A DNA stretch of 64,000 nt from Paratrimastix pyriformis (lineage: Eukaryota > Preaxostyla > Paratrimastigidae): positions 196,053-260,052 of the forward strand of contig JAPMOS010000052.1 in NCBI GenBank assembly GCA_027972325.1, in the 5' to 3' direction. A program made the translations under genes and the position numbers. Numbering within the stretch: position 1 is the first letter of the stretch; each line of letters starts with the position of its first letter. The notes beneath the pieces are model-generated. The model did no database searches. It worked only from the letters and a program-made list of their open reading frames with translations, and was not told where the DNA came from. Below are positions 1,915 to 61,624 of this stretch, one piece after another.

Positions 1915-2289
1915 GTGGTTCCTTTCGCTCATGAATTCCGTGCCAAGCTGGAGTCCCTCTGCGGGAAGATCCGTGAGGACGACCACACGGAGGTCGAGGT
2001 GGATGAGGCAACCGCCGCCCTGTTGGCGGTTGCCGCCCAGACGGTGGGTGTTCCGAGGCGGAAGCTGTCTACCGGCCAAGCTAGGTTGGCCGTCCCCCGG
2101 GCCGAGGCCCTGGTTGCGCTGGGTCGCGCCGCCGACGCTGTTCGGATCATCAAGGGTGCCGACTTGGAGCCTTTGACCCCCCAGCAGCAGTTGGACGCCC
2201 TCGGTGCCCTCCATCACCCCGCCCCCTTGCACGTTGCCCCCGATTACCTGCGCCAGTATTTTGTTCCAGGGTTTCTGTGGACGCTATAG
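1915..2289 (+). pseudogene. LINE ORF fragment from the region upstream of reverse transcriptase
   Basis: A 124-residue open frame whose middle part (for example AEALVALGRAADAVRIIKG, then LTPQQQLDALGALHHPAP) resembles the helical segment that precedes the reverse transcriptase domain in R2/CRE-like and related protist LINEs. In those proteins a short Ala/Leu-rich repeat is followed by a 'LHP' motif and then by the RT fingers. No RT follows here; the frame ends at 2289 in unrelated sequence, so this is a truncated relic. LINE C at 8.3-20.3 kb is the likely kind of parent, but that copy lacks this segment and I could not align the two directly. The family assignment rests on pattern recognition. 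Confidence 0.4.
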
Positions 2290-2585
2290 ACATTGAGATT
2301 TCTATAGAAAAAAGCCCGACGCTCTGGCCTCCGGGTTTTCGTGGACAGACCCTCCCCACTCGGCCTGTCTGTAGTGAGGGCCCGCGGGTTTTCATGAACA
2401 GACCCTTCCAAATCCTCCTTGCTTCACTTTCACCTTGCTTCACCCTGACGCACTTCCTCCTCCTTTTTTCGAGAGAAAACGTCGAGCCTCTAATTTCGGA
2501 TCAAAAAGAGAACCAGATTCATTACTCGTCTTCGTCTTCGTCTTCGCCTTGGGGGTTGGCGTTGTAGTCGTTGTTGCCAGTGTCG

Positions 2586-3806
2586 TCATCCGAATTTATC
2601 GCCGGCAAACCATTCATCTTCGTCATCATCGGCTACCGGCACGTTCTCGGGAAGTGGCACGGATTCCGGCACGGGTTCGGGCTCAGCCACAAGGACAGGA
2701 ACGGGCAGAGGAAGGGGCCCAGTTAAGAGGAAGTCCCAAAGGGTAGGAAGCTCGCGCGCGCAGGTGCTGGTGCGGAACTTGTGGCACTGAATCGACCAGT
2801 CATAGGTCTTCCGTTCGTCCGCGGAGAGAGAGAGGTATTCACGTTCGCAGGCCAGGAATACCTTGGGGAACTGTTCTCCGTAGTAGTCAGTGCGCTCCAA
2901 CAGGGAACGGTCACGAAGAACCCCCCTGAGGTAGAAGGGGTAAGAGCGTTCCCAGAGGACGATCTCATCGAGCCTCATCGGGCCCTCGACGGGGTGGTCG
3001 ATGTCGAATGCAGCCTCGGAATCAAGGAGCAGGGTAATGAGCAAGGCTCTTGCTGACAGGCCCCTGTAGGTCTGCGACGTATCAGAACAGCGTCCGCTGG
3101 TCAAGGAAAAAAGGACGCCACCGAAAGCGAGAACCATCCGGGTGAGTACCTTGTGCAACTCAACACAGATGGGAGCGGAGAAATGGTACTCAGTCAACGG
3201 CTTCAAAAAGTGAACGGGGACGATGAGGCCGGGATTCAGATGATTCGTGTTCGGGAACCAACTTGCCAGCAGCTTGGGGAAGATCCGTTCGTAAAAAGCC
3301 TGTCGGCTTAGGTGCACCTCGGTCTTGTCCTCCGGTTGAAAGAAGTCGTAGGTCCTGGAGGAGAGGCATGAGAAACCCACAACACATCAGGGAAAACAGT
3401 AAACAGACCGATTGAGGAGCGGGGAGCAGCGGACTTCGTAGCCGGGGGCTTGTCGTGGCATCATGCCGGGAAGGGGCTCAGGAAGGGGCTCAGGAAGGGG
3501 CTCAGGAAGGGGCTCAGGAAGGGGCTCAGGAAGGGGCTCAGGAAGGGGCTCAGGAAGGGGCTCAGGAAGGGGCTCAGGAAGGGGCTCAGGAAGGGGCTCA
3601 GGAAGGGGCTCAGGAAGGGGCTCAGGAAGGGACTCAGGAAGGGACTCAGGAAGGGGCTCAGGAAGGGGCTCAGGAAGGGACTCAGGAAGGGGCTCAGGAA
3701 GGGACTCGGGGACGTCCTCGACGAGAATGATCACCTGGCGAGACCGAGTCCGTCTGCTAAGCATGGCATGACTTGCGTGCTTCCTCTGCATTTTGGCGGT
3801 TTCCAT
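2586..3806 (-). CDS. Unknown protein with Pro/Glu tandem repeat, two exons
   Basis: Exon 1 (3806 or, more likely, the internal ATG at 3764, to 3409) encodes a short basic start, then about 20 copies of a four-residue LPEP/SLPE repeat, then [21 protein letters not shown] 54-nt intron (3408-3355, donor GTCTGTTT, acceptor CTCCAG) joins it in frame to exon 2, beginning [10 protein letters not shown]. Exon 2 carries a compact region containing [34 protein letters not shown] and [13 protein letters not shown], then ends in an acidic Pro/Glu tail with an EDDDEDE-like run. A diverged, truncated copy of the compact region lies head-to-head at 4118-4555. I do not recognise the family. No signal peptide or membrane span is visible. 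Because it sits beside the methyltransferase/integrase element it could be an accessory gene of that element. Confidence 0.5.
3463..3720. repeat. 12-bp minisatellite coding for LPEP units
   Basis: About 20 tandem copies of GGAAGGGGCTCA, with a few copies carrying GGGACTCA instead. On the minus strand the array is in frame within exon 1 of the unknown gene at 2586-3806 and encodes alternating LPEP and LPES. Confidence 0.9.
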
Positions 3807-4555
3807 GCGGGATACTCCAGGGGGTAACAGCCACTCTTTTCAAAACCAGGAAGTTCAAAATCAGACACAAGGAAAGCACTATTTCTCACGCCATCTCTCT
3901 GTTTTGTTCCCCTTGTAGGACGAACTACGGCTGGCACACGCTCTTCTCGGTGAACGGACCCACGCTGACGGGTTCCGCACAAGATAAAAGTTATGGTCGA
4001 ACAATAGATCAACGGTCTTCTCGATGCGACGAGGCTCCAGGGGGTAATAGCCACTCTTTTCAAAAAAACAGGGACACATGGAAAGCGGGAAGAAGGTGGC
4101 GGAGAGAGGTACTTAACCGGTTGGGACTCACCTTCGGAAAAATCCTGTTTTCGATGACCTGCGGTCAAAGTGCTGATATCGAGAAGACCTACCAGTTCCT
4201 GACTTCAAGAGCCTTGATGATTCTTGTGTGTCTGGATTCCGAGGCTGCATTCGGCGTCGACCGTGCCGTCGATGGCCACATGAGGCTGGATGAGCTTGCC
4301 CTCTGGGAACGCACTTTCCCCTTCTACGTAAAGGAGGTTTTTCATGACCGTTCCATGTTGGAACTCACTGACTACTACGGAGAACAGTTCCCCAAGGTAT
4401 TCCAGGCTTGCGAACGTGAATACCTCGCTCTCTCCGAAGACGAACGGAAGACCTATGACTGGTCGATTCAGTGCCACAAGTTCCGCACCAACACCTGCTA
4501 CCGCGAGATTCCGGCCCATTGGGACTGTCTCTTCAAGTTCACTGGGAACGCATAA
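3773..4555 (+). pseudogene. Truncated inverted paralogue of the 2586-3806 gene
   Basis: The last ~140 residues of this frame (from about 4118) closely match the compact region of the neighbouring minus-strand gene: [49 protein letters not shown] and [13 protein letters not shown] are shared with few changes. The upstream part of the frame has no match to the paralogue and no repeat array, so the N-terminal half is missing. A 32-base direct repeat containing CTCCAGGGGGTAA lies at about 3811-3843 and 4029-4060 in this upstream part. The two copies face away from each other across the minisatellite. The copy could be a 5' exon of the methyltransferase element rather than a dead gene. Confidence 0.45.
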
Positions 4556-4590
4556 ACAACCCGAGACTTTTTTTGTCTCTATCTCTCCCA

Positions 4591-6170
4591 CCGGAGTCGG
4601 CCACCGAGGAAGCCCAGCCTTCGTCGAAACCGGTGCCCGAGCCCGAGCCCAAAGCCAAGCCCCGAGCCAGCCAGTCCAAGCCGCCGCAGCCCGCCCCCCA
4701 GGCCAAGCCGCCGCAGCCCGCCCCCCAGGCCAAGCCGCCGCAGCCCGCCCCCCAGGCCAAGCCGCCGCAGCCCGCCCCCCAGGCCAAGCCGTCGCCTCAG
4801 CCCCAGCCGGCTCAGCCTCAACCCCAGACCCCGGCCCAGGCCCAGCAACAACACTCCAAGCCACCGCAGCAGCGTCAGTCGCCCAGGCCACCACCAAGCC
4901 CGCGTCCGCTGCGCCTCGTTCCGGCCCCCAGCTGCTTTCCGCACCCGCGGAGGGCCCCGATCCCTCATGGGAAAACCTTGGCCCGGTTCTACTGCGGGGA
5001 TGCCGAAGCGATCTTGTTTCGCGCGAAGGATAATCCCGGCCGTGTCTGCAGTTTCCAACTTGTTGGATCCCCACTAACATCCTCGTTTTATTCAATAGAC
5101 ACTGTATACCTTGGCCGTGTTGGATGCTCCCTGGGGCATTACCGACGACCCTCGAGACAGACCCACCCCGGACTACGGATCCCTGGCCCAGTACCTCGAC
5201 TCGTTCATTGCCCCCAATGGTACCATCATTGTGATGGATACCGAGGCCAACTTGTCCCAGCAATGGACGCCGGCTCTCGAGTGCTTCAATTTCGTGAGCG
5301 ATCACCGAATTCGTGCCATCTGGGGAAGTCCGTGATTCATTCCCTTCACGCAATTGGTTTTTAACTTGTGCTTCTTCATCACTTCTTCGCGCAGATTACC
5401 TCGAGGAGGCCAACCCCCGGCCGTCGCTCTCACCGGGAGCCCCCCGCCCTGAGGAGGTGGAGCTGCCCATCGAGGTCTTCCAGCGAGGCCACGAGGGGCC
5501 CGTCAACTGGCGCTGGGATGTACTGTGCCCTTCTCCGAGTGCGAAGTTGGCCGAGATGAACGCCCGGGCCAACCCGCGCACCAACGCGGTCTACCTGCGG
5601 CACCAGGCGGGGCAGGCCCGCTTCGCCAAGCCGGCCGATCTTTACGTCTACCTCTTCCGCCGCTACGGAGGGCCGGGCCCTGTGTTGGACTGCTTCTGCG
5701 GCTGTGGGCCAGCTCTCTTGGCGGCAGAGGCCACCGGAACGCGCGTTGATCTAATTGACCGGGCGCCTGCAGTGGAGAGCCTCATGATCGGCCACGTGCC
5801 TCCGGTGCTGGTGCACCAGCAGGACGAAGCATACCTGCCCCTCGAAGCCCACGAGACGGAGCTTTGCAACGTCGTTGCACCCCTGTCGACGAATGGGACC
5901 TGCATCTTCCTCTGCTCCCCCTCAAGAAGAACCTGCCCCGGCTCTACAAGAACAGCAGGCCTCCGAGCAGACCACCACCGCCGAGCAACAACAACAAGAG
6001 CAGGCCTTCGAGCTTCAAGACGACCAAGAGGGCCCCTCATCCCCGCTCCCGATGATCAGCCTTATCAGTGGCCTCCTCCTTCCGACGAGCTCAACCCGCT
6101 GCTGGACCCGCTCAGTCCGGATGCTTTGGGCGAGGACCTTCAGCCCGAGGAAATCGAGGACTTGCCGTAA
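4591..6170 (+). CDS. Beta-class DNA (N6-adenine/N4-cytosine) methyltransferase of the mobile element, copy 1
   Basis: Three exons splice in frame. Exon 1 (to about 5041) is Pro-rich, with four KPPQPAPQA repeats and then ARFYCGDAEAILFRAKDNPGR. Intron 1 (donor GTCTGCAG, acceptor TTCAATAG) joins it to TLYTLAVLDAPWGITDD. Intron 2 (donor GTCCGTGA near 5330, acceptor GCGCAG at 5395) leads to exon 3. LDAPWG is the catalytic motif IV (DPPW/DPPY class, with Ala in second position). KPADLYVYLFRRYG is motif X-like, and VLDCFCGCGPALLAAEATG with VDLID is the SAM-binding motif I and II region. Motif IV before motif I is the beta-class order. It should transfer a methyl group from SAM to an exocyclic amino group, probably in DNA. 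The frame ends in an acidic tail with a TAA at 6168-6170. The start codon is not resolved. Confidence 0.65.
4678..4785. repeat. 27-bp tandem repeat in the methyltransferase gene
   Basis: Four near-identical 27-base units, each encoding the nine residues KPPQPAPQA in the methyltransferase frame. Confidence 0.85.
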
Positions 6171-6374
6171 CTTGTAATACAATCCCTCTTTTCGATCCTG
6201 ATTTTTTTTTTGGTTTGTTTTTTTCTAAGAAACACGATACATCGAGAAATTGCCTCGATTGAACAACAAGCCACCGGGGCGGGATCGGGACCCGGAGGGG
6301 TCTGGGACCGGGAGTAGTGCTCGCTGGACGGGCTGCATGACCAGGGTGATAGCCACTCCTGTGGCGCCTCTGAT

Positions 6375-8017
6375 ATGGAGCCAATCGAAGTTGACGACCT
6401 CCCTCCACCGCTTCCTGAGGAGGAGTTATTTTTCGGAGGTGATGATGGTGACGAGGCGGCACATGAGGAGGCCGAAGAGCCAGCCCTTGGAGACCTGGAC
6501 CCCGCAGAAGCCGCCGAGATTGACGTCGTGGTTGATGTAGCAGCAGACGATGGTGATGTGGCTGATTATGGAAGCTACGACCGGACGGCGCGGGGATCCA
6601 TCTAATCCTTGCCGGGATCGAACGTCTGTTTTTGGTTTTTTCGGGTCATGATCAATGCCCCCGTTTGTCTCATTTTTCCAGTTCGGGAAGGATCACGCAG
6701 TTACCGGTCGAACTGTCTAAAACACGCCAATGAAGGGTTGTACCGCGTCGAGCGGGGAGTTCTGCAGCGGCTCCGCTTCGACCACGAGATCCGCGATCGG
6801 CCCATCTGGGTGCCCGTGATCTACCCGCTTGCCCGCCGTGTGCGCTTGCTGCGGCGCTTGCATGTCCAGCAGGGGCACCTCAACCGAGATGCCCTGATTG
6901 CCTACTCGAAGGGCCTCTTCTACATCCATGGCGTGGATCAGCTTGCGCGGGACATCATCGGGACGTGTGGCCAGTGCCAGAGCGTCCGGCCCACGTACGA
7001 GCATCCCAAGTACCACGCCTTGGTGGTCAACCGGCCCCTCGAGGTGGTCGAGCTCGACTGCGGCGGCTTCGAGATGAGCTGCCAGCCGCCTCGCGCGTTC
7101 TGCGTTCTGGTGGACCACTTCACGAGCTACATGTGGGCTGCCGCGACACGGGAGACGAAGGCCACCGGGGAGGAGGTGACCGACCTTCTCAGTCGTGTGT
7201 TCACCAGCGACGAGCCCAATCTGCTCCCCACCCGGATCGTGACCGACAATGGGACCGAGTCCAGCGCGTGGCCGAGTGGATCGCGTCTGTCCTGTGCGTT
7301 TCGGATTTGCTCTTCACAGTCATCAACCCGCTCAGGAACAAGAACCTGCTGCCCGGGGTCCACATGGAGCACCACCGGTCGAGGCCGTACTACCCCCAGT
7401 CTCATGGGAAGGCCGAGAACGCCGTCAAGAAGATCAAGAACCGGGTGATGAAGATGCGGATCGTGCCGGCCACCAACCGCGAGCTGCCGTGGCAACCCTT
7501 CCTGCAGCCCGCCGTGCACCTGTACAACACGGCCACGGTTTCTTCGGTCTTCCAGCAACGCCCGGTTGTGATGATGGCGCTCTACCTCCCCGAGTACGAA
7601 CAACTGGGCGACATGGCCCAGCTGCCGGACAAGTTCGCCAACCTGACGGCCGCGGAGGTGCGCCAAATCAAGGAGGCCGTGGCGTTCTACCGGCACCGCG
7701 AGTACGGCTACATTGAGCGGCGCCGCAACAAGGACCAAGAGACCATCGAGGAGGGGACTCGCGTCATGGTCGCCCCGCCTGCCAAATGGCGCCGGCCCGG
7801 CATTGGCAGGTTCTGCTGGTCCGGGAGGGTGGCGGAACGCATGCGTAACGGCACCTACGTCATCGAGTTTGAGGATCGGGTCAAGCCGGGCATTCCCAAG
7901 GTCTACGGGCGCAACAAGCTGCGGCCTTACGATGCCACCTTCGATGCCCCGCTCCCTGCTGCGGGAGGCGCTCTGGTCCCCGTCGTTGATCGCCGGCGTC
8001 ACGCGCCCCCAGAATAA
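6375..8017 (+). pseudogene. Gypsy/Ginger-type DDE integrase, copy 1 (frameshifted)
   Basis: Exon 1 starts at the ATG at 6375 (MEPIEVDDLPPPLPEEE) and is acidic. A 58-nt intron (6624-6681, donor GTCTGTTT, acceptor TTTCCAG) precedes the integrase proper. An HHCC zinc domain is seen at about 6860-6980 (HVQQGHLNRDALIAYSKG, then CGQC). The catalytic core follows with Asp in VVELDCGG, Asp in IVTDNGTE and Glu in SHGKAEN. A basic, chromo/SH3-like C-terminal half ends at 8017. Copy 1 has one G fewer than copy 2 near 6590, which puts exon 1 out of frame. A second frame change at about 7258 is present in both copies: either a one-base deletion after TDNGTE or a very short GTCTGT intron. The integrase would insert the element's DNA, making a target-site duplication. 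Confidence 0.75.
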
Positions 8018-8305
8018 ACACCCCCAACCCCACCATCCCCACCACCGCCCCCCGTCCCGCAGTTTTCCGGTCCGGTTTTCTGCAAAACAAAATGATCTTA
8101 TACGAATGCTCGAGGAGGGGGTGGGGTGAAATCGTTGGAGGGGCCGGATAATCGGGCTCGGGGGGAGGCTGCGTGCATTACCAGTTTTCTCCCAGAGGAT
8201 CCCCAAAACCGGCTCTCGCTCACCCCCCCCCCCCCCCCCGTTCATGAACGCCCTGTGCACTCTGGGTTCTTGTCGACGCCCCGTCCATACAAAACCGGAA
8301 ACATA
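8018..8305 (+). other. 3' tail of methyltransferase-integrase element copy 1
   Basis: Non-coding tail shared with 43441-43741 on the minus strand. It contains a run of about 18 C at 8222-8240. Copy 2 has only five C at the equivalent site but a long C-run elsewhere, so the two copies differ by homopolymer slippage. Homology stops at AAACCGGAAACA. Confidence 0.55.
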
Positions 8306-9289
8306 TTTTAATCCCACCCCCACGCAGGCTCCCGGCCCGGACGAGTCGGCGCCGCACTTCAGCGACCGCGATGTCAGGCGCGCCTTGTTCGGCTTCAAGC
8401 ACGGGGCCGCTGCGGGTCCGAGTGGCTTGGCCCCGACCACATCCGCAGCGCGGTCCGCAAAGATCCTGCCATCCTGCCTCTGCTCGCCGAGGCCCTGAAC
8501 TTCTTCGTGAAGTGCGGGCGTCTCCTCCGACCCTGGCCGCAGCCCGTCTTGTCGCGATCCCGAAGCCCAAAGGAGGCACGCGACCGATTGGAATCAGCGA
8601 GACCCTTTGCAGGCTCGCCATGAGGCTGCTGGTTCGGCGTTTCGAGGGGGTGACGAGGGAGAGGCTTTCACCCTTCCAGTTTGGTGTGTCCGTCAAGGAG
8701 GGTGCGCCCCTCATGGCATGCATCTCAGCGTCCGTCGTGGAGGCGTGCGAGGCGGGTCGGCAGCCCTACTGCCTTGTGGCTGTCGACCTCCGCAACGCGT
8801 TCCAAGCCCTTCGCGCGAGGCGGTGCCCCTGGCCGCTCAGCGCGTCGGGTGGAGCCAACCGGCTGTCAAGCTGGTCCAAGGTCTGTACGCTAACGAGGCC
8901 CTGTTCTCCGGTGGGGAGAGGGTCCCTAATGCAAGAGGAGTCCGCCAGGGATGCCCGGCGAGCCCCCCCTTGTTTGCAGGGATCCTCGACCCAGCCCTAC
9001 AGGTCCTCGAGGCCGACAAGGCAATTCCGAGGCTCATGCTCCCGGGAGAGGGCTTGGGCCTGGTCGTCCCCCGCGTTCTGAGCTACTTTGATGACATCCT
9101 CCTGCTGGCACCCTCTCCCGACGTTGCCCAGCACCTTCTGGGTCTCCTGCGCACCCTCATCACTCCCCTGGGCTTCGAGATCAGCCCCGAGAAGTGTTGG
9201 GTCATCTCCAATGCCCTCGACCCCAAAGTCCGCCTGGTCCCTGGCGGGCTTCCTCTACCCGTCCGTCGCCTGGCGGATGGGGTGACGGT
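8306..9289 (+). pseudogene. LINE C, 5' portion: R2/CRE-like reverse transcriptase (interrupted)
   Basis: The RT fingers and palm are readable across at least three frameshifts (about 8420, 8515 and 8815). Landmarks are FSDRDVRRALFGFKHGAAAG, AIPKPKGGTRPIGI, VAVDLRNAFQAL, ARGVRQGCPASPPLF and the catalytic YFDDILLLAP. The 5' end is missing or not recognisable; no AP-type endonuclease precedes the RT. The frame runs to RRLADGVTV and stops exactly at the insertion point of LINE A. The protein continues at 18749. The RNA-templated polymerase would prime on target DNA nicked by the endonuclease domain encoded in the 3' portion. The copy is dead because of frameshifts and the insertion. Confidence 0.75.
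9279..9289. repeat. Left target-site duplication of LINE A
   Basis: GGGGTGACGGT directly precedes the GT-rich end of LINE A and is repeated exactly at 18749-18759 on the other side. Removing 9290-18759 restores the LINE C reading frame (GVTV then LGVPFGP). Confidence 0.9.
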
Positions 9290-9334
9290 GTGTGTGTGTG
9301 TGTGATACTTCCCGGCTTGCGCCGAGTCCGGAAT

Positions 9335-9348
9335 CGGGCCGAAGCCCG
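9335..9348 (-). promoter_or_regulatory. 3'-terminal UUCG hairpin of LINE A
   Basis: On the minus strand CATGTCACCCG is followed by CGGGC-TTCG-GCCCG, a five-pair stem capped by a UUCG tetraloop, about 40 bases before the (CA)n tail. The same arrangement ends the other LINE copies and both gag-only elements, so it is a likely recognition signal for the LINE reverse transcriptase. Confidence 0.6.
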
Positions 9349-9468
9349 CGGGTGACATGATCCCCCCCGGGCCGCCTTCCCGCAGGACAAGTCCTGCAGA
9401 AAGAGCACCCCAGGGAGTTCATGGGTCGGCTACCGTCCCTCCAGGGGCGGTCTCCGCCGACTTCCGGA

Positions 9469-12400
9469 CTACAGCTCTTCTTTCATTCCTGCCTCAAATT
9501 TTTCGCACTTCTTCCTTTGCTGAATCGCTATGAGCATCGTTTTCCTGATTCCTGCCAGCTCGCTTCCCACCTCCTTTTGAGTGTCTTCATCCACAATTCC
9601 CATTTCCGCTGCCAGTCTACATGCATTCGCGTATTCCATCTTAACACCGCACTTCGCTCTCAACCTCCTCATCACCTTCGTCACCACCGCCTCCGATATC
9701 CCCCTCCAGTTGTAAAGCGCTTCCCCATCTCTCGGGCGGCCCTCATAGTTTACCTGCACCATGCAACTCCTCCTCATTCCTCCATCCTTCCCCCCTCCTC
9801 AAGATCGGCTCCCACGCATCTGAATGTCCCCCTTGATCGCCAAGCTCACACCGTGCTTCGGCTCACTCCCCGGCTGGATTCTGTTCGCTTTCCCTTCCCC
9901 GTACGGCACAATAACAATGCATCTAAACGCTCTTTCCCTCCTCTACCAATCGGGCTCTCCGCCCACTCTCCAATTGCTCGGAAAAACCGATCCATCTCCT
10001 CCTGGGGTTATATTCCGGATTCGCATAAATCAACAAGTCCCGATTCTCCTTAAATAGCCCGTACCCATCCACCGAACCTCCCAGGAACCAGTCTTCCTTA
10101 CTCGGCGTTCTATACTCTGGGAAACTGAGATCCGCATTCCCTGGGTGCGAAAACGCCATCACCGTTAGGCTTCCCGCCTGCCTCAGCAACGAAGATATAG
10201 TGTGGGGAGTCGTCCATTGGTTCCTCAGCGTACTCATATGCGTCCGCCCCTCCTTTACTGTCGTGCTTTTCCCTTCCTCATATCGGTCACACATCTCAGC
10301 CACCTCTGTCGAGAACCTTTCCCAAAACTGTCCCATGTTCTCGCCCGAAACCATCTCCCCGGGACCTCTCCATCAATTGCCATAGCCTCACCTTCGTGAT
10401 CTGCCTGCCCCTTATCTTCACACACTCGCCCATCGGCTCCACCCACTTCTCCTCGAGCAACTGGTCCGGGTCTTCAGCTCCCTCCGCCTTGTCCAACCAC
10501 TCAATTAGCTTCACTGCATCCGCCCCTTTCCATCTCTCCCCACATCCCGCCATCCCTGGGCACTCAAACACCAAGTGGTTCATGTGGTCCCTCACCCCAC
10601 ACCAACACTTCCCATCCCCCTCCCCGTTGATGTAGAACCGGATGTTGGCCGTGATATACCGCTGCAGGATTGCCATCATCGCCAGCTTCCCTGACATCTC
10701 ACACCTCATCGTTTGCACGTTGATCCCTCCGTTGCGACTCTCTGCATTAATCAACACAATCTCGTTTTTCTTTTTACGAGCCGCCCTCCACATTCGACTT
10801 TTCCTCCCCCATTCCTTCATCACCTCTCTGAAGTCTGTCTCCACCTCCTTCCCGTCACTTCTCCGCACCAGCTTGAATCCCCATCCTTTCTCTTCGGGCA
10901 CCACGCTCGGCTCCATCTTTATGCTCCGTCCCGCAATCTTGTCTGCCAATCTGTTCCCCTCCGCATCCAGCGACGCACTAGTTTCCTGATGTCCCTTAAC
11001 CCAGACCAGTCGTATCTCTCCACGATGCTCCTTCACAATCCGCTGCCCTCCGCAGCAGTCCCTCCGCCTTCGATTCTATCAGATCCGTTGGTTTCCACCA
11101 ACCCTTCCAGTCCACCCACTGTCCACTTCCACAGCCTCCAACTCCGCTTCATTGTTAGTCTGCCCCACCTCCTCCCATTTTAATCTCCATCACCGCGAAC
11201 GCCGCCCGTCCCTTCCTTCTGTCGCACTCCCATCAGTATAAAACAACCTCCATTCCGCCTCTGGCTCCACTCTTACTTCCACCTCATCACACTCCGCCAT
11301 CAACTCCTCCCGCCTTTCCACAATACCTCGTCCCACTCACCAGCCCTCGCCCTCCCATCTTGTTCCCCTCCCTCCACCTGCCCTTCCGCCCTCCTCTTCT
11401 TCCGCTCCCTCAATCCATTCCATCCTTTCCTTCCTTCACTCCCCCATGTTTCCTCCATTTCCTTCCCCCTTTTGCTTGCCTCTTGACTGGTTTCCTTCCC
11501 ATTTTCCTCCATCCCTCCTTCCATTCCATTCCATTCCTTTCCCTTCCTCCTCCTCCGTCCGCCTCCTAATTCAGATAGTCGGACTCACCCTGTTACCCTT
11601 TGATCGTCTCCACATACTGCGGCATCACCCTTTCAATGAAATCTTCCCCTATGATGAGGTCCGCCACACTCCGAATCTTCCTTTTCATGAGGGTCTGTCT
11701 GTGCTTCTTTGTTATCTTGCAGGGCTCCGCCATCTCTTCCAGTGTCGTCGGCATGCCGTACTTCACTTCCTCCTTCAGTTTCTCACCGTCCCTCAGGATC
11801 GCCATGTCTCTCCTGTGCATCACCTGCAACGCCCCAATCACCACCCCGGCATCTTCTCCTGCCCGTGCATCTTCACCCACTTCCCTGCATCATCCAACAG
11901 CGGCTCACGCGTCGTCCACAATTTCTGCAGCAGCACGATCTCCTCCCTCAGCACCACTCCACACCCCTGCTCGTCCGCCATCCTCCCAGAATTTGTGTCA
12001 TCACCATCATATCATGGACATCAATCGGGTCCTTCAGCCCCATACCCCTTCCTCCTCCGGAAAGAACAGCACCTCTGCCGGGTCGCATTTCCCAATACAA
12101 CCTCCGATTTCCCTGAACACCCTCGCATATCTCTGCTTCAGTGTTTCCAAGTCCCTTGTCGGCATTGGGCACTGCCTCGCCGTGTATTGTAGGCAAGTCG
12201 AGACACACTCATTAATCATTTGCACCATCAACCTCGGAGGACCTTCTTGTCCATGAGCCTGTGCAGTCGCCCACACATTTTCTGGATCACCTTCTCCGTG
12301 TTGACCTTCATGTTCATCTCCTCATCTATCCATATCCCAAGATACCGAATTGCTCCACCCTTTTGCTGCACTCTGATCTTTCGACCCTCTCCCAGATCCA

Positions 12401-43440: not shown

Positions 43441-43741
43441 CGTGTTTCCGGTTTTGTATGGACGGGGCGTCGACAAGAACCCAGAGTGCACAGGGCGTTC
43501 ATGAACGGGGGTGAGCGAGAGCCTGTTTTGGGGATCCTCTGGGAGAAAACTGGTAATGCACGCAGCCCCCCCCCCCCCCCCCCCCCAGCCCGATTGTGCC
43601 GTTGATGGCATCCGGCCCCCTCCAACGATTTCACCCCCCACCTCGAGCATTCGTATAAGATCATTTTTGTTTTTGCAGAAAACCGGACCGGAAAACTGCG
43701 GGACGGGGGGCGGTGGAGGGGATGGTGGGGTTGGGGGTGTT

Positions 43742-45367
43742 TTATTCTGGGGGCGCGTGACGCCGGCGATCAACGACAGGCACCAGAGCGCCTCCCGCAG
43801 CAGGGAGCGGGGCATCGAAGGTGGCATCGTAAGGCCGCAGCTTGTTGCGCCCGTAGACCTTGGGAATGCCCGGCTTGACCCGATCCTCAAACTCGATGAC
43901 GTAGGTGCCGTTACGCATGCGTTCCGCCACCCTCCCGGACCAGCAGAACCTGCCAATGCCGGGCCGGCGCCATTTGGCAGGCGGGGCGACCATGACGCGA
44001 GTCCCCTCCTCGATGGTCTCTTGGTCCTTGTTGCGGCGCCGCTCAATGTAGCCGTACTCGCGGTGCCGGTAGAACGCCACGGCCTCCTTGATTTGGCGCA
44101 CCTCCGCGGCCGTCAGGTTGGCGAACTTGTCCGGCAGCTGGGCCATGTCGCCCAGTTGTTCGTACTCGGGGAGGTAGAGCGCCATCATCACAACCGGGCG
44201 TTGCTGGAAGACCGAAGAAACCGTGGCCGTGTTGTACAGGTGCACGGCGGGCTGCAGGAAGGGTTGCCACGGCAGCTCGCGGTTGGTGGCCGGCACGATC
44301 CGCATCTTCATCACCCGGTTCTTGATCTTCTTGACGGCGTTCTCGGCCTTCCCATGAGACTGGGGGTAGTACGGCCTCGACCGGTGGTGCTCCATGTGGA
44401 CCCCGGGCAGCAGGTTCTTGTTCCTGAGCGGGTTGATGACTGTGAAGAGCAAATCCGAAACGCACAGGACAGACGCGATCCACTCGGCCACGCGCTGGAC
44501 TCGGTCCCATTGTCGGTCACGATCCGGGTGGGGAGCAGATTGGGCTCGTCGCTGGTGAACACACGACTGAGAAGGTCGGTCACCTCCTCCCCGGTGGCCT
44601 TCGTCTCCCGTGTCGCGGCAGCCCACATGTAGCTCGTGAAGTGGTCCACCAGAACGCAGAACGCGCGAGGCGGCTGGCAGCTCATCTCGAAGCCGCCGCA
44701 GTCGAGCTCGACCACCTCGAGGGGCCGGTTGACCACCAAGGCGTGGTACTTGGGATGCTCGTACGTGGGCCGGACGCTCTGGCACTGGCCACACGTCCCG
44801 ATGATGTCCCGCGCAAGCTGATCCACGCCATGGATGTAGAAGAGGCCCTTCGAGTAGGCAATCAGGGCATCTCGGTTGAGGTGCCCCTGCTGGACATGCA
44901 AGCGCCGCAGCAAGCGCACACGGCGGGCAAGCGGGTAGATCACGGGCACCCAGATGGGCCGATCGCGGATCTCGTGGTCGAATCGGAGCCGCTGCAGAAC
45001 TCCCCGCTCGACGCGGTACAACCCTTCATTGGCGTGTTTTAGACAGTTCGACCGGTAACTGCGTGATCCTTCCCGAACTGGAAAAATGAGACAAAGGGGG
45101 GGCATTGATCATGTGAAAAACCAAAAACAGACGTTCCACCCCGGTAAGGATCAGGTGGATCCCCCGCGCCGTCCGGTCGTAGCTTCCCCAATCAGCGTCT
45201 GCGACATCAACCACGACGTCAATCTCGGCGGCTTCTGCGGGGTCCAGGTCTCCAAGGGCTGGCTCTTCGGCCTCCTCATGTGCCGCCTCGTCACCATCAC
45301 CACCTCCGAAAAATATCTCCTCCTCAGGAAGCGGTGGAGGGAGGTCGTCAACTTCGATTGGCTCCAT
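43742..45367 (-). CDS. Gypsy/Ginger-type DDE integrase, copy 2
   Basis: Same protein as at 6375-8017 and almost identical from the zinc domain to the C-terminus. Exon 1 (MEPIEVDDLPPPLPEEEIFF, ATG at 45367) stays in frame through TARGIHLILTGVE to the GTCTG donor, because the G-run that is short in copy 1 has the extra G here. The frame change after TDNGTE (about 44500) is shared with copy 1. If that point is a short intron (GTCTGT...TTCACAG), this gene is intact; if it is a deletion, both copies are dead. The HHCC domain, D, D and E residues and basic C-terminus are as described for copy 1. The gene is followed by the element's 3' tail. Confidence 0.7.
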
Positions 45368-45591
45368 ATCAGAGGCGCCACAGGAGTGGCTATCACCCTG
45401 GTCATGCAGCCCGTCCAGCGAGCACTACTCCCGGTCCCGGTCCCGGTCCCGGTCCCCCTCCGAATCCCGATCCCGCGCCCAACCCCGGTGGCTTGTTGTT
45501 CAATCGAGGCAATTTCTCGATGTATCGTGTTTCTTAGAAAAAAACAAACCAAAAAAAAAATCAGGATCGAAAAGAGGGATTGTATTACAAG

Positions 45592-46460
45592 TTACGGCAA
45601 GTCCTCGATTTCCTCGGGCTGAAGGTCCTCGCCCAAAGCATCCGGACTGAGCGGGTCCAGCAGCGGGTTGAGCTCGTCGGAAGGAGGAAGCCGTTGATAA
45701 GGCTCATCATCGGGAGCGGGGATCAGGGGGCCCTCTTGGTCATCTTGAAGCTCGGTGGCCTGCTCTTGTTGTTGTTGCTCGGCGGTGGTGGTCTGCTCGG
45801 CGGCCTGCTCTTCTTGTAGAGCCGGGGCAGGTTCTTCTTGAGGGGGGAGCAGAGGAAGATGCAGGTCCCATCCGTCGACAGGGGGTGCAACGACGTCGCA
45901 AAGCTCCGTCTCGTGGGCTTCGAGGGGCAGGTCTGCTTCGTCCTGCCGGTGCACCAGCACCGGAGGCACGTGGCCGATCATGAGGCTCTCCACTGCAGGC
46001 GCCCGGTCAATTAGATCAACGCGCGTTCCGGTGGCCTCTGCCGCCAAGAGAGCTGGCCCACAGCCGCAGAAGCAGTCCAACACAGGGCCCGGCCCTCCGT
46101 AGCGGCGGAAGAGGTAGACGTAAAGATCGGCCGGCTTGGCGAAGCGGGCCTGCCCCGCCTGGTGCCGCGGGTTGGCTCGGGCGTTCATCTCGGCCAACTT
46201 CGCACTCGGAGAAGGGCACAGTACATCCCAGCGCCAGTTGACGGGCCGCTCGTGGCCTCGCTGGAAAACCTCGATGGGCAGCTCCACCTCCTCAGGGCGG
46301 GGGGCTCCCGGTGAGAGCGACGGCCGGGGGGTGGCCTCCTCGAGGTAATCTGCGCGAAGAAGTGATGAAGAAGGACAAGTTAAAAACCAATTGTCTCGTG
46401 AAGGGAATGAATCACGGACTTCCCCAGATGGCACGAATTCGGTGATCGCTCACGAAATTG
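45592..46460 (-). pseudogene. Methyltransferase copy 2, exon 3 (motifs X and I)
   Basis: Carries KPADLYVYLFRRYG, VLDCFCGCGPALLAAEATG and the acidic tail to the stop at 45592. Compared with copy 1 it lacks a short TNAVYLR segment near 46170 and has a few substitutions. The gene is broken upstream by the gag-only insertion, which lies within the preceding exon/intron segment, so no complete enzyme can be made from this copy. Confidence 0.7.
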
Positions 46461-47747: not shown

Positions 47748-47946
47748 CTCACGAAATTGAAGCACTCGAGAGCCGGCGTCCATTGCTGGGACAGGTTGGC
47801 CTCGGTATCCATCACGATGATGGTACCATTGGGGGCAATGAACGAGTCGAGGTACTGGGCCAGGGATCCGTAGTCCGGGGTGGGTCTGTCTCGAGGGTCG
47901 TCGGTAATGCCCCAGGGAGCATCCAACACGGCCAAGGTATACAGTG
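47748..47946 (-). pseudogene. Methyltransferase copy 2, exon 2 (motif IV)
   Basis: Minus-strand YTLAVLDAPWGITDD, PDYGSLAQYLDSFIAPNG and QQWTPALECFNFV, the catalytic exon of copy 2. It is cut on its 3' side by E1 and on its 5' side by LINE B at GGTATACAGTG (47936-47946). Confidence 0.75.
47936..47946. repeat. Left target-site duplication of LINE B
   Basis: GGTATACAGTG, repeated exactly at 59909-59919. The uninterrupted site is present in copy 1 (reverse complement, about 5099-5109). Confidence 0.9.
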
Positions 47947-48032
47947 CCCCCGGTCGCATAGACCCTCGAGTTTTGAATTCCTTTGCCCCGTTTTTTTGCG
48001 TCGATTCTCTCGCTGCCTCTTGCTATTTTCCA

Positions 48033-48554
48033 ATGAACAAGACTGAAGAACAATCTGGGATGACGATGGAGCAAATGGAAGAAGCCGGGAAGATTGAGGA
48101 GAAGAAACGGGATGCAGAAGCAGCTGTTGCGCAATCGGAGGCTGCGAGCAAAAAGAGACGTGAGGGTAAGGTCGGTACATTTCGCTTTTGTGGTGGGGTG
48201 AGGGGGGGACCTGCATCGGGTCCTGGCCCTATCAATGTGATCGTGGTCTTACTGGTAGTTTGTTGGATGATGTCTCTTTTGTCGCAGAGAGTCCGTGTTC
48301 CGGTTCGTTTCAAGAAGCCTCTGGACTCGTCCTCGCCCAACTATCGAAACTTGACATTGGCAATGGAGAGGGATGGATTCGCTGAGCCGCTTGTGGAGGG
48401 CTCCTACCCCTCCTTTGAGGTGCTCATCTATGAAGACGATTTAGAGCTATTGGACAAGTTTTGTGGGGTGAAGGGATTGGACATCCTGGACCACCGAATG
48501 GAGGAATTACCTGAGTCGCGCTCAGCCACTACGATTGTTGGGGACTTCTCCCTG
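48033..48554 (+). pseudogene. LINE B ORF1, 5' part
   Basis: MNKTEEQSGMTMEQMEEAGK starts a Glu/Lys coiled coil, then a ~39-residue stretch with the hydrophobic NVIVVLLVVCWMMSLL, then RVRVPVRFKKPLDSSSPN and a folded-looking part to VGDFSL, where the inverted block begins. The hydrophobic stretch is bounded by GTCGGT and TCGCAG and is a multiple of three without stops, so the frame is open with or without it. The continuation (ELLLKAIREANPGCF) lies on the minus strand from 50274. Confidence 0.55.
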
Positions 48555-50274
48555 AGCTCCCATCTGCTGAGTCCAGTATTGGAATTGGATGACTGAAAAA
48601 GAGGGTACACACAGACCAACCCCATTCCAGGAAAGCTCAAAACAATAACCAGGCTGCCCTTGACCAGCCTTAACAGAATCAGCGGCCACATTCCTAAAAG
48701 TTTCTGAAGATGACAAAAAAGAATACCGGAAAGACAGACTCTCTCCCAAAGAACGTGCCGCATCAGCAACATCCCAGAGAAGGATCTTCCATCTGACCAG
48801 ACGGTCAGACAGGCATCTCAGGGGGCCAGATATCTGAAATTCTAAGGATGAGCCGCTGCCAGACGTCCCAACAACCAACAAACCGGTAGTTATTTCCGAC
48901 ACCAGACAGGGCCCACCTCCGAGGCAAAGCACTCTGTCCAGCCGGGAGACTATGATCAAAGCATGATTAGAAACTCTCCATCCATCTTCCTCCATCCACA
49001 GACCAACGAGACATCGGCTAGACATACCACACCAACCTGAGGGCAGCCGCCACCCAATGCAGCCACCACACCAAGCCGGCACACCATCCAACCACAGTTG
49101 GAAAGTAGGGGCGCTCAGCCCACCAGAAAACGCGGGAGAAAACAGCCATCCCAACCCCCGCCAACCCTCCTGATCCCATCTCTCTCCCGTCCACCACCGG
49201 CCCCTTCGCCCCTTCCAGAGGTCTTCCCCCTCTCCGTACCAGCATTCCCAGTTCTCATTACCAGTCTTTATCCAACCCAGACAACCACGCTTCTCGCCCC
49301 TCTCTTTTGGATCAACTACATTTACCCCTTTATTAATTCCCCACCCAATTCCCGTTCCCCTCCTTCTTGTCTGTGATATCTCCACCCACTCCAATTTTAC
49401 CTTCCACCTCTCTCCACCAATTCCACCATCTGTTCCACCCCTCAGTTGCATAATGATTCCCCTCCCCATTCCAACCAAGCCCCCACCCCCTTCTTTCCCT
49501 TTTCCCATATCCCCTCGCCCCCTTTCCCCTCGTTTTTCGGTATTCAATACATCGTGCCCCCAAACAAAACTCGCGATTACACGATCCACCTCTCCAATTG
49601 CTCCCACCCCTTCCATTATTCTCCACCCAGTCCCCTTTCTGCACCCTTTACCAGCTCCCTTCCACTCGTTTTCAGACAGTGCCAACACAGAAGGACAGGG
49701 AGAAATAGGGGGGGGGGGGCCGATGATCACAGCAGCTGCCCACCCCCACGCACCCGTCCACAACCCGCCCAGCTCCTTCACTCACAGCCCGCCCGTATCC
49801 GCAACAACAACAGCCCCCACTTCCTGCCCCCTCCGCGCCATAGCCCGGGCCCTGGGGACCTCGTCGGTCGGGATGCGGAGGACGAAGCCCCCGTCCCACC
49901 GCCCCGAATCCAAATCGCGATCCTTCAGTTTGATTTGGTCCGGGGCGGTGAGACCGCTCGTCGCAAACCACCGCATCACGTCGGCCACCGATCTGCAACC
50001 AGCCGGCCGCAGCACGATGACCGTCTTGCCAGGCACATTCTCGAACTGCTCCGACCGCTCCCCGGCAAAAATCGGCCGGCGACCCGCCACGACCGATGGC
50101 CACACTGGCGGGCCCCTCACCACACATAGCACACGGAACACCTTCATCATAGGGTCTTGCACCTACCAAGAGATGATCATTCCCAACCCCCACCTGACAG
50201 ACCTTGCCATGAACTTGTTTCCCAGTCACAAAGCAGCCAGGATTGGCTTCCCTAATCGCTTTCAGGAGCAACTC
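48555..50274 (-). pseudogene. LINE B inverted block P2: ORF1 middle region
   Basis: Minus strand: LLLKAIREANPGCFVTGKQ, then KTVIVLRPAGCRSVADVMRW and SGRWDGGFVLRIPTDEVP (matching SGRWDGTFCVM in LINE A), then a Gly/Glu-rich stretch and the Trp-rich WECWYGEGEDLWKGRRGRWW to SVIQFQYWTQQMGA at 48.57 kb. Several frame changes occur, and a 10-base G-run lies near 49710. No known domain is recognised. Confidence 0.5.
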
Positions 50275-53200
50275 TTCTCCACTCTCCGCCTCTTCCGCCC
50301 CTCCTCCGCCGACTCCTCCTCCCGAATCCGCCTCGCCAATTGCAGATAGTCCGGACTCACCCTGTTACCATACAGACACACCCGCTTTTTGATCATCTCC
50401 ACATACTGCGGCATCACCCCTTTCCAATGAAATCTTCCCCCTATGATAAGGTCCGCCACACTCCGAATCTTCCTTTTCATGAGGGTCTGTCTGTGCTTCT
50501 TTGTTATCTTGCAGGGCTCCGCCATCTCTTCCAGTGTCGTCGGCATGCCGTACTTCACTTCCTCCTTCAGTTTCTCACCGTCCCTCAGGATCGCCATGTC
50601 TCTCCTGTGCATCACCTGCAACGCCCCAATCACCACCCCCGGCATCTTCTCCTGCCCGTGCATCTTCACCCACTTCCCTGCATCATCCAACAGCGGCTCA
50701 CGCGTCGTCCACAATTTCTGCAGCAGCGCGATCTCCTCCCTCAGCACCACTCCACACCCCTGCTCGTCCGCCATCCTCCCCAGAATTTGTGTCATCACCA
50801 TCATATCATGGACATCAATCGGGTCCTTCAGCCCCATACCCCCTTCCTCCTCCGGAAAGAACAGCACCTCTGCCGGGTCGCATTTCCCAATACAACCTCC
50901 GATTTCCCTGAACACCCTCGCATATCTCTGCTTCAGTGTTTCCAAGTCCCTTGTCGGCATTGGGCACTGCCTCGCCGTGTATTGTAGGCAAGTCGAGACA
51001 CACTCATTAATCATTTGCACCATCAACCTCGGAGGGACCTTCTTGTCCATGAGCCTGTGCAGTCGCCCACACATTTTCTGGATCACCTTCTCCGTGTTGA
51101 CCTTCATGTTCATCTCCTCATCTATCCATATCCCAAGATACCGAATTGCTCCACCCTTTTGCTGCACTCTGATCTTCCGACCCTCTCCCAGATCCAAGTC
51201 CGTCTTCCCCTTCACCCCGCCACACAGGTAGTCACACTTGCTCCACGACAGCTCCATACCAGCCTCTTCCACTTTCCGCCTTACCGTATTCACCAAACGG
51301 ACCATCTGTTCCCTTGTTCTCGTCACCAACATAATGTCGTCCGCAAATGCCAACACCTTTACCTTCCTGCCGCTATCCAGAATATAGCCCCCCTCCTGTC
51401 GTCTCACCTCCGCCAAGACTCCCTCCATGAAGGAGATAAACAGCAGGCAGGACAACGGATCCCCCTGACTAATTCCTCTCTCAATGTCATAGCTATCCGT
51501 CAACCCGTACCCCGTGATCACACGCGCCTTTCTCCCCTCATACAAGCTGTCCACATACCTGACAAATTCCTCTTCCACCCCCATCCTTCTCAACCCCTTT
51601 CTGAGCGCCTCCATGTCAACTGTATCATAGGCCTTTCTTATATCTAGCGCGCACATGTGGAACTCCTTACCTCCCATAATCTTCGAGTCCGTCAACACCC
51701 CCAAAATCTCGGCAATCGGCGTCTCAATCCTCCGATCCCTCAGGAAACCAAACTGCTCCGCCCCGAATACCCCTTTTTCAACGCACCAGTCTTGAAATCT
51801 CGAGGCAATCACTACCTGCAGTCCTTTCAAAAAGACCTGTATTAAAGTTATAGGCCTTCTTCCCGCCGGATCCCCCGGATGCTCCGTCTGCGATTTGGTT
51901 GCCATATAGACCGAGCTGAGTTTCAGCTCCTCAGGAACCTCAGACTTCTGCAACATCTCGTTGTATCGCCTCCCCAACCACTCCTTAATTTCGTCCTGAC
52001 AAGCATGGACCATCTCCGCCGTCACTCCATCCGGGCCAGCCGCTTTCCCGTCCGGCAAAGCCCCCAGTATTGTCTGGATATCATGCGTCGTCAGAGGGGC
52101 CATAATTACCCTTCCACCCACGCCTCCCGTTACCTCCTTCAGTCTTTGCCCCCCGTCCCCCACCGGCAGCTTCCTTTTTGCAAGCCCCGCCATGAAACCC
52201 CACCATCCCCTCTTAACCTCCGCCGGGTCCGACACCACCCTGTCCATCTTCCCCTCCGCATTTCGAGTCACGTAGGTTGTAATTGGCGCCGCGCCATCCG
52301 TCATGATACCCTTATAGATACGCTTGCGCTTTCCCTCCAATGCCCTATCTCTCTTACCATAATGCACCGACCTCATCTTCGCCAGCTGTTTCAACATCTC
52401 CTTCCTCTTACTCAAGTCCTCCTCCGCCAGCGCTCTCCTCCTCAATTTCTTTATCCTGAAAGGCTCAAAATCTCGATCCGTATTCATCACATCCCTATAG
52501 CCGAAAACGCAGCCAGCTGTCACCCGAAGAAACTCACTCATCTGTTCAAATGATGGCTCCTCCCCCTTCACAGCTGCCTCTCGCAACATTTGCGCAACCT
52601 TCCCACGGTACTTTTCCATTTTCCCAACCATAACATCATACTCCTCCTTCTTCTTGTCCCGCAACAGTGCCTCCACATCCGTCCGGGAAGGGCAGATGGC
52701 CACCTTCCTCCGAGCCATTTTCACCGCAGAGGGCGCCATGTTTCGGAGTTCCGTTACAATCATGTGGTGATCCGTGACCGCCTGCCACTGAATCTCATCA
52801 TTCCGCCAAACAAACAAATTGTCCAGCACCCTCCCCATTGTCCCCTGCGTCGACAGACACAAATCCAACCGGGCCCTCCCCTTCCCTTCATGCTCTTCCT
52901 CTTTCGCCACCGTCCCACCCTTCCGGCTCCGGATAAAACTTATCTCCCCCGCCTTCCCAACCATCTTCGCCACATCATACAATCCCAGTTTCTCTTGCTC
53001 CCCTCCTTCCTTAGCCCATCCGTTCGCATCTGTGTACACCACGACTCCTCTCCCATCCGACGCCCCCCCCGCCACACACTCCTCCAACCGCTCCAAGATC
53101 ACACTCCTTACCCTCACGTTCGCCTCTCCGTCCCCAGTAGGAAAATACATGTTGATGAGTCTCATCTGATTCTTCCCCTCCGTCCAGTCCATAAACATGA

Positions 53201-54797: not shown

Positions 54798-55159
54798 CCT
54801 CCTTCATCCCCACCCATCTCTTAAATCGGTCAACAATAAAATTCCAATTGGCCTGGCGTGCTAGACCTTCCAAGTCCCCCCAAGCGTACATTATCACTTG
54901 CAACCATGATATCCGAGCCAGTCTCCCTTTCCAAACCTCCCTGTCCCAAGAGCACTGCCGAAACTCAAAGGAGTCTACAAGGCAAACGGCAACAAGGAAA
55001 ACATTCGCACAGACCGTAAGCAAAAAGGAAGCCAGCCCCAGCCACCTGAGCCAAAGTAGTATGCCCCCGATGTCGCCAGCCTGTGCCGCATTCCCATCCC
55101 CGGCATCGTCCTCCATCCCACCATCGAGGTTTTCCCAAAGTCGGGGTTCTCCTCTGCTC

Positions 55160-59908: not shown

Positions 59909-60106
59909 GGTATACAGTGTCTATTGAATGAAACGAGGATGTTAGTGGGGATCCAACAAGTTGGAAACTGCAGACACGGCCGGGATTATCCTTCGCGCGA
60001 AACAAGATCTCTTCGGCATCCCCGCTGTAGAACCGGGCCAAGGTTTTCCCATGAGGGATCGTGGCCCTCCGCGGGTGCGGAAAGCAGCTGGGGGCCGGAA
60101 CGAGTC
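59909..60106 (-). pseudogene. Methyltransferase copy 2, exon 1 end and intron 1
   Basis: Minus strand: RLVPAPSCFPHPRRATIPHG, ARFYSGDAEEILFRAKDNPG, then the GTCTGCAG donor and the intron to TTCAATAG, matching copy 1 at 4915-5100. It is separated from exon 2 by LINE B and cut off upstream by the LINE at 60107. Confidence 0.75.
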
Positions 60107-60740
60107 TCCCCGGTCGCATAGACCCTTGAGTTTTGAATTCCTTTGCCCCGATTTTTGCGTCGATTCTCTCGCTGCCTTTTGCTATTTTCCAATGAGCAAG
60201 ACTGAAGAACAATCTGGGATGACGATGGAGCAAATGGAAGAAGCCGGGAAGATCGAGGAGAAGAAACGGGATGCTGAAGCAGCTGTTGCGCAATCGGAGG
60301 TTGCGAGCAAAAAGAGACGTGAGGGTAAGGTCGGTATATTTCGCTTTTGTGGTGGGGTGAGGGGGGGACCTGCATCGGGTCCTGGCCCTATCAATGTGAT
60401 CGTGGTCTTACTGGTGGTTTGTTGGATGGTGTCTCTTCTGTCGCAGAGAGTCCGTGTTCCGGTTCGATTCAGGAAGCCTCTGGACTCGTCCTCGCCCAAC
60501 TATCGAAACTTGACATTGGCAATGGAGAGGGACGGATTCGCTGAGCCGCTTGTGGAGGGTTCCTACCCCTCCTTTGAGGTGCTCATCTATGAAGACGATT
60601 TGGATTTATTGAACAAGTTCTGTGGGGTGAAGGGATTGGACATCCTGGACCACCGAATGGAGGAATTACCTGAGTCGCGCTCAGCCACTACGATTGTTGG
60701 GGACTTCTCCCTGGAGTTGCTCCTGAAAGCGATTAGGGAG
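60107..60740 (+). mobile_element. LINE 5' end (LINE B type), truncated by the Polinton
   Basis: Begins CCCCGGTCGCATAGACCC like LINE B and encodes the same ORF1 start (MSKTEEQSGMTMEQMEEAGK, ATG at 60193) through the optional hydrophobic stretch (NVIVVLLVVCWMVSLL) to VGDFSLELLLKAIRE. At GATTAGGGA the sequence departs from the LINE (which continues AGCCAATCCTGG) and becomes AT-rich. Only the 5' ~630 bases are in the window. Confidence 0.75.
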
Positions 60741-60800
60741 TAGTTATAAAAGGAGAGTTCTGAGACAATCGATTTTCACACACAATTTTTTACGCTTGCG

Positions 60801-61100
60801 TTGTTATTTGAGGCAAAAATCGATTTCTTCAGAACAAAATCTTTTTTTCTCATTATTTTTTATTGAAAAGGAGCATTTTATTTTATCAGCTTTGAATGAT
60901 TTAAGCATTAATTTTCTCGAGCTACAAACGTTATTTGAGGCAAAAATCGAATTCTTCAGAGCAAAATCTTTTTTCTCAATGTTTTTTAAGTAAAACGAGC
61001 ATTTTATTTTAATCAGCTTTGAATGATTTAAGCATCAATTCATTCGAGCTACAAACGAAATTAGAGGCAAAAAGCGAATTCTCCATGCATTTTCAATTTT
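60801..61100. repeat. 127-bp subterminal tandem repeats of the Polinton
   Basis: About 2.3 copies with a period of 127 bases; AGGCAAAAAT begins at 60811 and 60938, AGGCAAAAAG at 61065. Each unit also contains GAGCATTTTATTTTA and TTTGAATGATTTAAGCAT. Confidence 0.85.
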
Positions 61101-61620: not shown

Positions 61621-61624
61621 GAGA

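Follow-up and report, generated by a model that had tools for sequence, protein, structure and literature searches.

Mobile elements bearing a DNA methyltransferase are known from several sources. The cases that we found described comprise retroelements, whose enzymes are of C5 or Dam type, and a small number of mariner elements in virus genomes (PMC6338049, PMC3627910, PMC5890265). In bacteria, IS10 is an earlier example of a mobile element whose transposition adenine methylation regulates (a title cited in PMC3627910), and giant transposons have been reviewed (PMC6431247). Ginger2/TDD elements make target site duplications of 4 bp in metazoans and of 5 bp in TDD-4 and TDD-5, and the integrases of long terminal repeat (LTR) elements, as well as Polintons, are thought to have been drawn from a pool of elements free of reverse transcriptase (RT) (PMC2836005). 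In the open-access literature, we found no description of an integrase DNA transposon paired with an amino-methyltransferase. Here we analyse a window of 64,000 nucleotides of Paratrimastix pyriformis (assembly GCA_027972325.1, contig JAPMOS010000052.1, here C444, positions 196053–260052), from a genome of 56,060,509 bases in 495 contigs. This genome carries dozens of copies of an integrase transposon with a probable methyltransferase.

The part of the window at 4.6–8.3 kb is the right portion of an internally deleted family-1 copy of this transposon, which spans 2262–8303 on the plus strand (6042 bp) and has both ends in common with termini found across the genome. Full copies elsewhere in the 56-Mb genome are about 10–15 kb long and belong to two families. 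A first-pass annotation, made from the letters alone, had placed a mobile unit at 4591–8305; the true start is at 2262 and the true end at 8303. Its observation is confirmed and its interpretation as a transposon proved largely right.

Termini, target sites and copy number

The window copy opens with the left terminal inverted repeat (TIR) TGTTCCAGGGTTTCTGTGGACGC (2262–2284, plus strand), a pattern that recurs genome-wide, and closes with the right repeat, which reads TGTTTCCGGTTTTGTATGGACGG inward (8281–8303, minus strand) and agrees with the right ends elsewhere in the genome. Directly outside are two copies of TATTT, at 2257–2261 and 8304–8308 on the plus strand, which form the target site duplication. 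Full copies start TGTTCCAGGGTTT and finish ACCGGAAACA, with imperfect inverted ends of about 23 bp. The left-end pattern TGTTCCAGGGTTTNTGTCGACGC, searched with up to two mismatches, has 88 genomic occurrences (20 with none and 68 with one); the right end, searched with up to three, likewise has 88 (70 exact). Reversed patterns used as controls for the two ends gave 0 places each across the genome. The left terminus is TGTTC and the right TGTTT, and the first 20 bases of the two ends match at 15 positions in the C182 element and at 14 in the second element compared. Ten family-1 copies compared had a common 3' end, and the same end was present at the family-2 loci.

Left and right ends in matching orientation and no more than 40 kb apart formed 25 pairs, 16 of family 1 and nine of family 2. 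Ten of the family-1 pairs span 11.3–13.5 kb, one is the 6.0-kb copy in the window, and five span 18–35 kb and may be nested insertions or false pairs; the family-2 pairs span 10.2–14.7 kb. Twenty pairs with sufficient flank were tested for target duplications (19 by comparison and C108 by eye), leaving aside C268, C111 and C253, where the contig runs out at the element terminus or a single base beyond it, together with C115 and C63. Thirteen of the 20 had a perfect 5-bp duplication; C182 and C193 share a site, so that 12 distinct sites are represented, among them GACTT, ATCAC, CCATG, GAGGG and GGGTC. Uninserted counterparts exist for two insertions (C182 for the insertion in C130, and C130 for that in C308), whose duplications are GACTT and ATCAC. 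On C62, two right ends lie 1095 bp apart (C62:64499 and 65594; about 2499 and 3594 of locus L020) with the same 12 bases after each, as if a short second copy stood at the same site or a local duplication had occurred.

The copy in the window is a defective derivative. Some 7.4 kb of the C182 element (approximately 2213–9636) has no equivalent in it, it contains an inverted junction at 4107–4592 relative to that element, and the reading frame of its integrase is interrupted after TDNGTE. When its flanks are joined to reconstruct the uninserted site, an open frame results, and an RT domain lies downstream at 8511–9302 in a gene with a frame shift of its own; the copy therefore probably landed in a long interspersed nuclear element (LINE).

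Integrase and search for retroelement genes

The integrase is encoded on the plus strand by 6606–7259, which contains an H2C2 zinc finger and the first two catalytic Asp residues and breaks frame just downstream, and by 7337–8017, which follows a short putative intron and contains the catalytic Glu region and the C-terminal part. The first of these segments scored 28.2 bits against Pfam Integrase_H2C2 (cut-off 25.5) and, below the cut-off of 32.6, 24.8 bits against rve. A family-2 copy in C233 exceeded both cut-offs, with 29.6 bits for Integrase_H2C2 and 39.3 for rve, and the integrase seen in the first-pass annotation is confirmed. A protein database search with the integrase gave no homologue among the 8000 candidates scored, and no homologue of either the integrase or the methyltransferase was confirmed in the viral contigs searched.

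The same annotation had seen neither RT nor RNase H. A scan of 119 stop-to-stop open reading frames (ORFs) of at least 100 amino acids from the C182 and C130 elements (Pfam, E≤0.05) agrees with this, having found no RT, RNase H, retroviral protease, capsid or packaging ATPase. Twelve Pfam families were matched: rve, Integrase_H2C2 and zf-H2C2 (two members each), and nine others, namely RsiG (4.2e-5), I-HmuI_NUMOD-like (5.4e-4, two members), gp37_C (9.2e-4), EccD, DUF6193, Yae1_N, DNA_pol_E_B (0.038), YoaL and DUF1979. DNA_pol_E_B, the only match named for a polymerase, is a subunit and not PolB. When the two terminal 2-kb stretches were compared in each of four elements, neither an LTR nor any other long direct or inverted repeat emerged; the best match extended over 43 bp at 72%. 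A 5'-truncated retroelement starting at 4585 of the window was also considered and rejected, the homology running further upstream to the true left end.

Predicted methyltransferase

The methyltransferase gene of the window copy lies on the plus strand, upstream of the integrase. Its exon boundaries were inferred from GT-AG signals and reading frame rather than from RNA. An upstream exon (4588–5061) with a proline-rich linker and a RING-like cysteine region is in frame with the methyltransferase. It is followed by an exon with motif IV, LDAPWG (5099–5327), whose frame is also present in other copies, and, after an inferred GT-AG intron, by an exon recognised by motifs and profile matches (5395–6170) with KP, resembling motif X, and VLDCFCGCG, motif I. 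The placement of LDAPWG ahead of VLDCFCGCG in the first-pass annotation was therefore accurate. Within the upstream exon, the roughly 50 amino acids before the methyltransferase (4915–5061) resemble the Mdm2 RING at a non-significant E of 0.11, with zinc ligands partly kept.

The motif order IV, X, I is that of the beta class, an identity that is not carried to curated profile thresholds. The best PHROGs matches of the family-1 and family-2 proteins are DNA methyltransferases (phrog_67, E 0.0032 and 0.0078; phrog_498, E 0.0038 and 0.015). The PADLOC model mad2, which we take to represent a DNA methyltransferase, matched both (E 0.0079 for family 1 and 0.00015 for family 2), and MTase_II matched family 1 (E 0.035). 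Pfam Methyltransf_23 also matched family 1, at E 0.035 and half its cut-off. Reversed or shuffled control sequences, in sets of 6 and 4, gave no methyltransferase match and one unrelated match at E 0.069. A YhdJ-family profile aligned at motif I and scored 26.6, where 60 column shuffles reached 21.5 at most, the HH-suite probability of this comparison being just 5%. Among solved structures searched by sequence, 1ws6, named 'methyltransferase', matched the motif X–I part at E 0.15; a repeat protein at 1e-10 in that search was disregarded, its stretches individually having E of at least 86. The protein database returned one match to the methyltransferase query, with 98% identity over 57% of its length. 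MT-A70 matches occur elsewhere in the genome, on C377, C14 and C35.

The two families were also compared for constraint, each exon being represented by a single copy from either family. The proportions of nonsynonymous differences (pN) in the methyltransferase exons were 0.34 and 0.23, against proportions of synonymous differences (pS) of 0.74 and 0.70. Synonymous divergence (dS) was 2.1–3.1 and the ratio of nonsynonymous to synonymous divergence (dN/dS) 0.13–0.15, a rough value because dS is near saturation; the contrast between pN and pS is clear, and pN well below pS indicates that the protein has been kept. DAPWG and the KPADLYVYLFRRY...GPGPVLD block are identical in both families despite the near-saturated synonymous sites. 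The transposon protein is probably a methyltransferase on this evidence, and the balance leans towards its being catalytically active on DNA.

Two families and linkage of the genes

Family 1, represented by the C182 element (13,347 bp), has from left to right gene A on the minus strand, an array of 137-bp repeats, a plus-strand gene that ends in the methyltransferase, and the integrase. In family 2, represented by the C130 element (10,462 bp), the methyltransferase reads leftward and is followed by an array of 133-bp repeats and then the integrase, which reads rightward; among the matches listed, gene A adjoins the integrase on the same strand in the family-2 copies on C62 and C233. The guanine-cytosine (GC) content of the C182 and C130 elements is 57–59%. 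The integrase and right end have about 84% DNA identity across the two families, and the remainder aligns in short pieces only. Between families, dS is 0.34–0.36 for the integrase and 1.7 for gene A. We infer that the transposition module, consisting of ends and integrase, may have been exchanged between the families, with a cargo module that would be faster-evolving or older.

Linkage was counted on merged match rows with short fragment rows left out, the source listings being lower bounds. There were 96 integrase and 98 methyltransferase clusters, and 78 of the 96 integrase clusters had a linked methyltransferase, 68 of them upstream on the same strand and 10 in the divergent family-2 layout. 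Given these 68 upstream on the same strand and the 10 divergent ones, the pairing is not due to chance, and the two genes lie together rather than apart in most copies. The first-pass annotation had also reported them twice in the window with the same order and spacing. A second unit does exist on the minus strand at 43443–46460, with the right end, the integrase and the second methyltransferase exon, and is 95% identical to the unit of the first copy. Its spacing is broken, the motif IV (LDAPWG) exon having been shifted away to 47748–47946 (minus) by a 1.29-kb insert, and 59912–60104 (minus) is an isolated family-1 fragment of the upstream exon, identified by sequence comparison with the first copy. 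A 607-bp segment, 96.5% identical, occurs at 47948–48554 and 60108–60713 and adjoins both displaced methyltransferase exons of the second copy.

Gene A and internal repeats

Gene A ('ALWER') is an open frame at 2586–3386 on the minus strand of the window copy and has a relative in both families. It is followed by 12-bp tandem repeats (3469–3707), which resemble an array of the C182 element, and by a second gene-A stretch (3761–4555, plus) that overlaps the rearrangement junction, 4107–4592 being inverted. A Pfam search with gene A gave no family above cut-off; an impression of an HMG box was dropped as it had no Pfam support, and the AlphaFold model had a predicted local distance difference test score (pLDDT) of 37. 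The two gene-A copies in the window have a dN/dS of 0.69, a constraint much weaker than that between families.

The central array of the C182 element contains 20.6 copies of its 137-bp unit (element positions 3847–6621), and that of C130, with 133-bp units, occupies element positions 4888–5507. Though their units differ, both arrays share a CATAC...GTATG palindrome, listed 17 times in C182 and 7 times in C130. The right terminus also contains CCATAC and ACCGG. The palindromes and these terminal motifs are possibly binding sites for a protein of the element.

Other features of the window

An open LINE-type frame of 1513 amino acids is present at 50262–54803 on the minus strand, with an RT match at E 1.6e-29, an endonuclease-like part at 5.5e-5 (just under cut-off) and a ubiquitin-hydrolase-like part at 5e-4 (under cut-off). 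Repeats of this region lie at about 9.3–17 kb of the window. The stretch at 60800–64000 is AT-rich (GC 37–40%) and has an rve integrase of its own (61984–62844, minus) and 127-bp repeats. On contig C62, a stretch past the transposon (L020) has a Pox_A32-type ATPase as well as a Peptidase_S74 protein. The AT-rich stretch and the C62 stretch are probably endogenous virus-like elements.

Interpretation and rival explanations

Taken together, these data make it likely that the element is a DNA transposon that uses an H2C2 and DDE integrase as its transposase and carries a probable beta-class amino-methyltransferase, gene A and a palindromic array, self-methylation being the most likely role of the methyltransferase. 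The integrase would recognise the TGTT...AACA inverted ends and insert the element through a 5-bp staggered cut, a predicted enzymology drawn from the ends and duplications seen here. The amino-methyltransferase would use S-adenosylmethionine (AdoMet) to methylate adenine or N4-cytosine in the element's own DNA, at its ends or in the array, and this might tune expression of the element, recognition by the integrase or silencing by the host. The mark may also be placed on host DNA. A further reading, which we hold tentatively, is that the element represents a new superfamily of large integrase DNA transposons in which methyltransferase and palindromic array could form a self-marking switch for divergent transcription, transposition or escape from silencing; the conserved integrase and ends, set against the inverted and diverged methyltransferase and gene-A block, would then reflect an arms race over the marking module.

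Several results weigh against a self-methylating transposon. Seven of the 20 tested pairs (C77, C18, C221, C120, C88, C62 and C108) have no 5-bp duplication; on the left side, C221, C88 and C62 have the same flanking sequence as C182, C308 and C61, respectively, which retain their duplications, and the former three therefore look like rearranged alleles. Eighteen of the 96 integrase clusters have no methyltransferase nearby, and 17 of the 98 methyltransferase clusters have no integrase within 15 kb. No Pfam methyltransferase model matched the transposon protein at cut-off, and the family-2 protein had no Pfam methyltransferase match at all. The sole NCBIfam match was a 16S rRNA methyltransferase model (E 0.17), and PF01555 had no match in the genome in a search that detected 11 of 14 controls. 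An AlphaFold model of a natural ORF, without the motif IV strand, had a mean pLDDT of 35. The usual motif IV of beta-class amino-methyltransferases is [DNS]PP[YFW], a form departed from by the DAPW of both families. In all, the hidden Markov model searches suggested by the first-pass annotation placed the integrase above cut-off and the methyltransferase below every curated threshold, and the beta-class assignment made there keeps its motif order and its weak, consistent profile matches.

DAPW in place of the canonical DPPW or NPPY, together with motif I reading FCGCC in family 2 and the unmatched curated thresholds, could instead mean that the transposon is real and its 'methyltransferase' a dead or repurposed AdoMet-fold protein that serves in DNA binding or as a partner of the integrase. 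We regard this as unlikely, since DAPWG and the GPGPVLD block are unchanged between families near synonymous saturation. Descent from a Ty3/gypsy LTR retroelement that decayed and lost its RT would account for the gypsy-type integrase domains, and TG...CA ends and 5-bp duplications are also compatible with LTR elements. That origin is scarcely credible in view of the missing terminal direct repeats in four elements, the lack of RT, RNase H and protease families among the 119 ORFs scanned in one element of each family, and the ten of 16 family-1 pairs at 11.3–13.5 kb, as for an intact RT-less element and not random decay; the LTRs and RT named in the first-pass annotation as signs against a DNA transposon were not found in these elements. 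A reduced Polinton/Maverick-like or virophage-like element would likewise have an rve integrase, and a Polinton-like virus has been drawn with a Dcm-type methylase (PMC4642659); the second rve integrase in the AT-rich stretch and the Pox_A32-type ATPase on C62 point the same way. This origin is very improbable, and a Polinton remnant was rejected: the 119 ORFs hold no capsid, packaging-ATPase or PolB family, and GC content is 57–59% in two elements against 37–40% in the AT-rich stretch. Polinton target duplications are 6 bp, not the 5 bp found here. The H2C2 finger of the present integrase is reported by Bao et al. to be lacking in Polinton integrases (PMC2836005).

An RT-free integrase element that is present in dozens of similar copies and encodes a predicted amino-methyltransferase offers a test system. 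Methyltransferase frames are open in some copies and broken in others within this one genome, and native long reads could therefore reveal self-writing of N6-methyladenine (6mA) or N4-methylcytosine (4mC), a disputed mark in eukaryotes. The element also adds a type to the presumed RT-free source pool of LTR integrases and Polintons (PMC2836005).

Comparison with known systems

DIRS elements with a Dam-type methylase are likewise mobile elements bearing an amino-methyltransferase; they depend on reverse transcription and on a tyrosine recombinase (PMC6338049, PMC5890265), and no sign of either was found here. SymbioLINE-Dnmt and SymbioDIRS-Dnmt3 are eukaryotic elements with a DNA methyltransferase whose gene order is shuffled between families, as in the present case, but their enzymes are C5-cytosine DNMTs in retroelements (PMC5890265). 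The mariner elements in virus genomes are DNA transposons with a methyltransferase gene and differ in their mariner transposase, linked endonuclease and Methyltransf_26 or C5 type of enzyme (PMC3627910).

The first-pass annotation had suggested a Ginger-like DNA transposon or a relative. Full-length copies have inverted ends of about 23 bp, 13 of the 20 tested pairs are flanked by perfect 5-bp duplications, and no RT was found among the ORFs scanned, all of which bears out the general assignment. As described in PMC2836005, Ginger2 and TDD-4 and TDD-5 share with this element an H2C2 and DDE integrase as transposase, the lack of RT and inverted ends that begin TGT, and TDD-4 and TDD-5 also its 5-bp target duplications. 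The same source gives Ginger2/TDD termini as TGTNR (TGTTC and TGTTT here), tabulated TIRs of 45–297 bp (about 23 bp and imperfect here), an AT-rich RTATAY target (no such preference among 12 sites here) and autonomous elements of 2.8–6.7 kb (10–15 kb here), and the methyltransferase, gene A and repeat array are extra in the present element. The 4-bp CCGG/CCGT duplication of Ginger1 also differs from what was found. Because the element departs from published Ginger transposons in its termini, in the length of its TIRs and in the targets it prefers, it is described as a family of its own, set apart from Ginger, that works like a Ginger2/TDD transposon.

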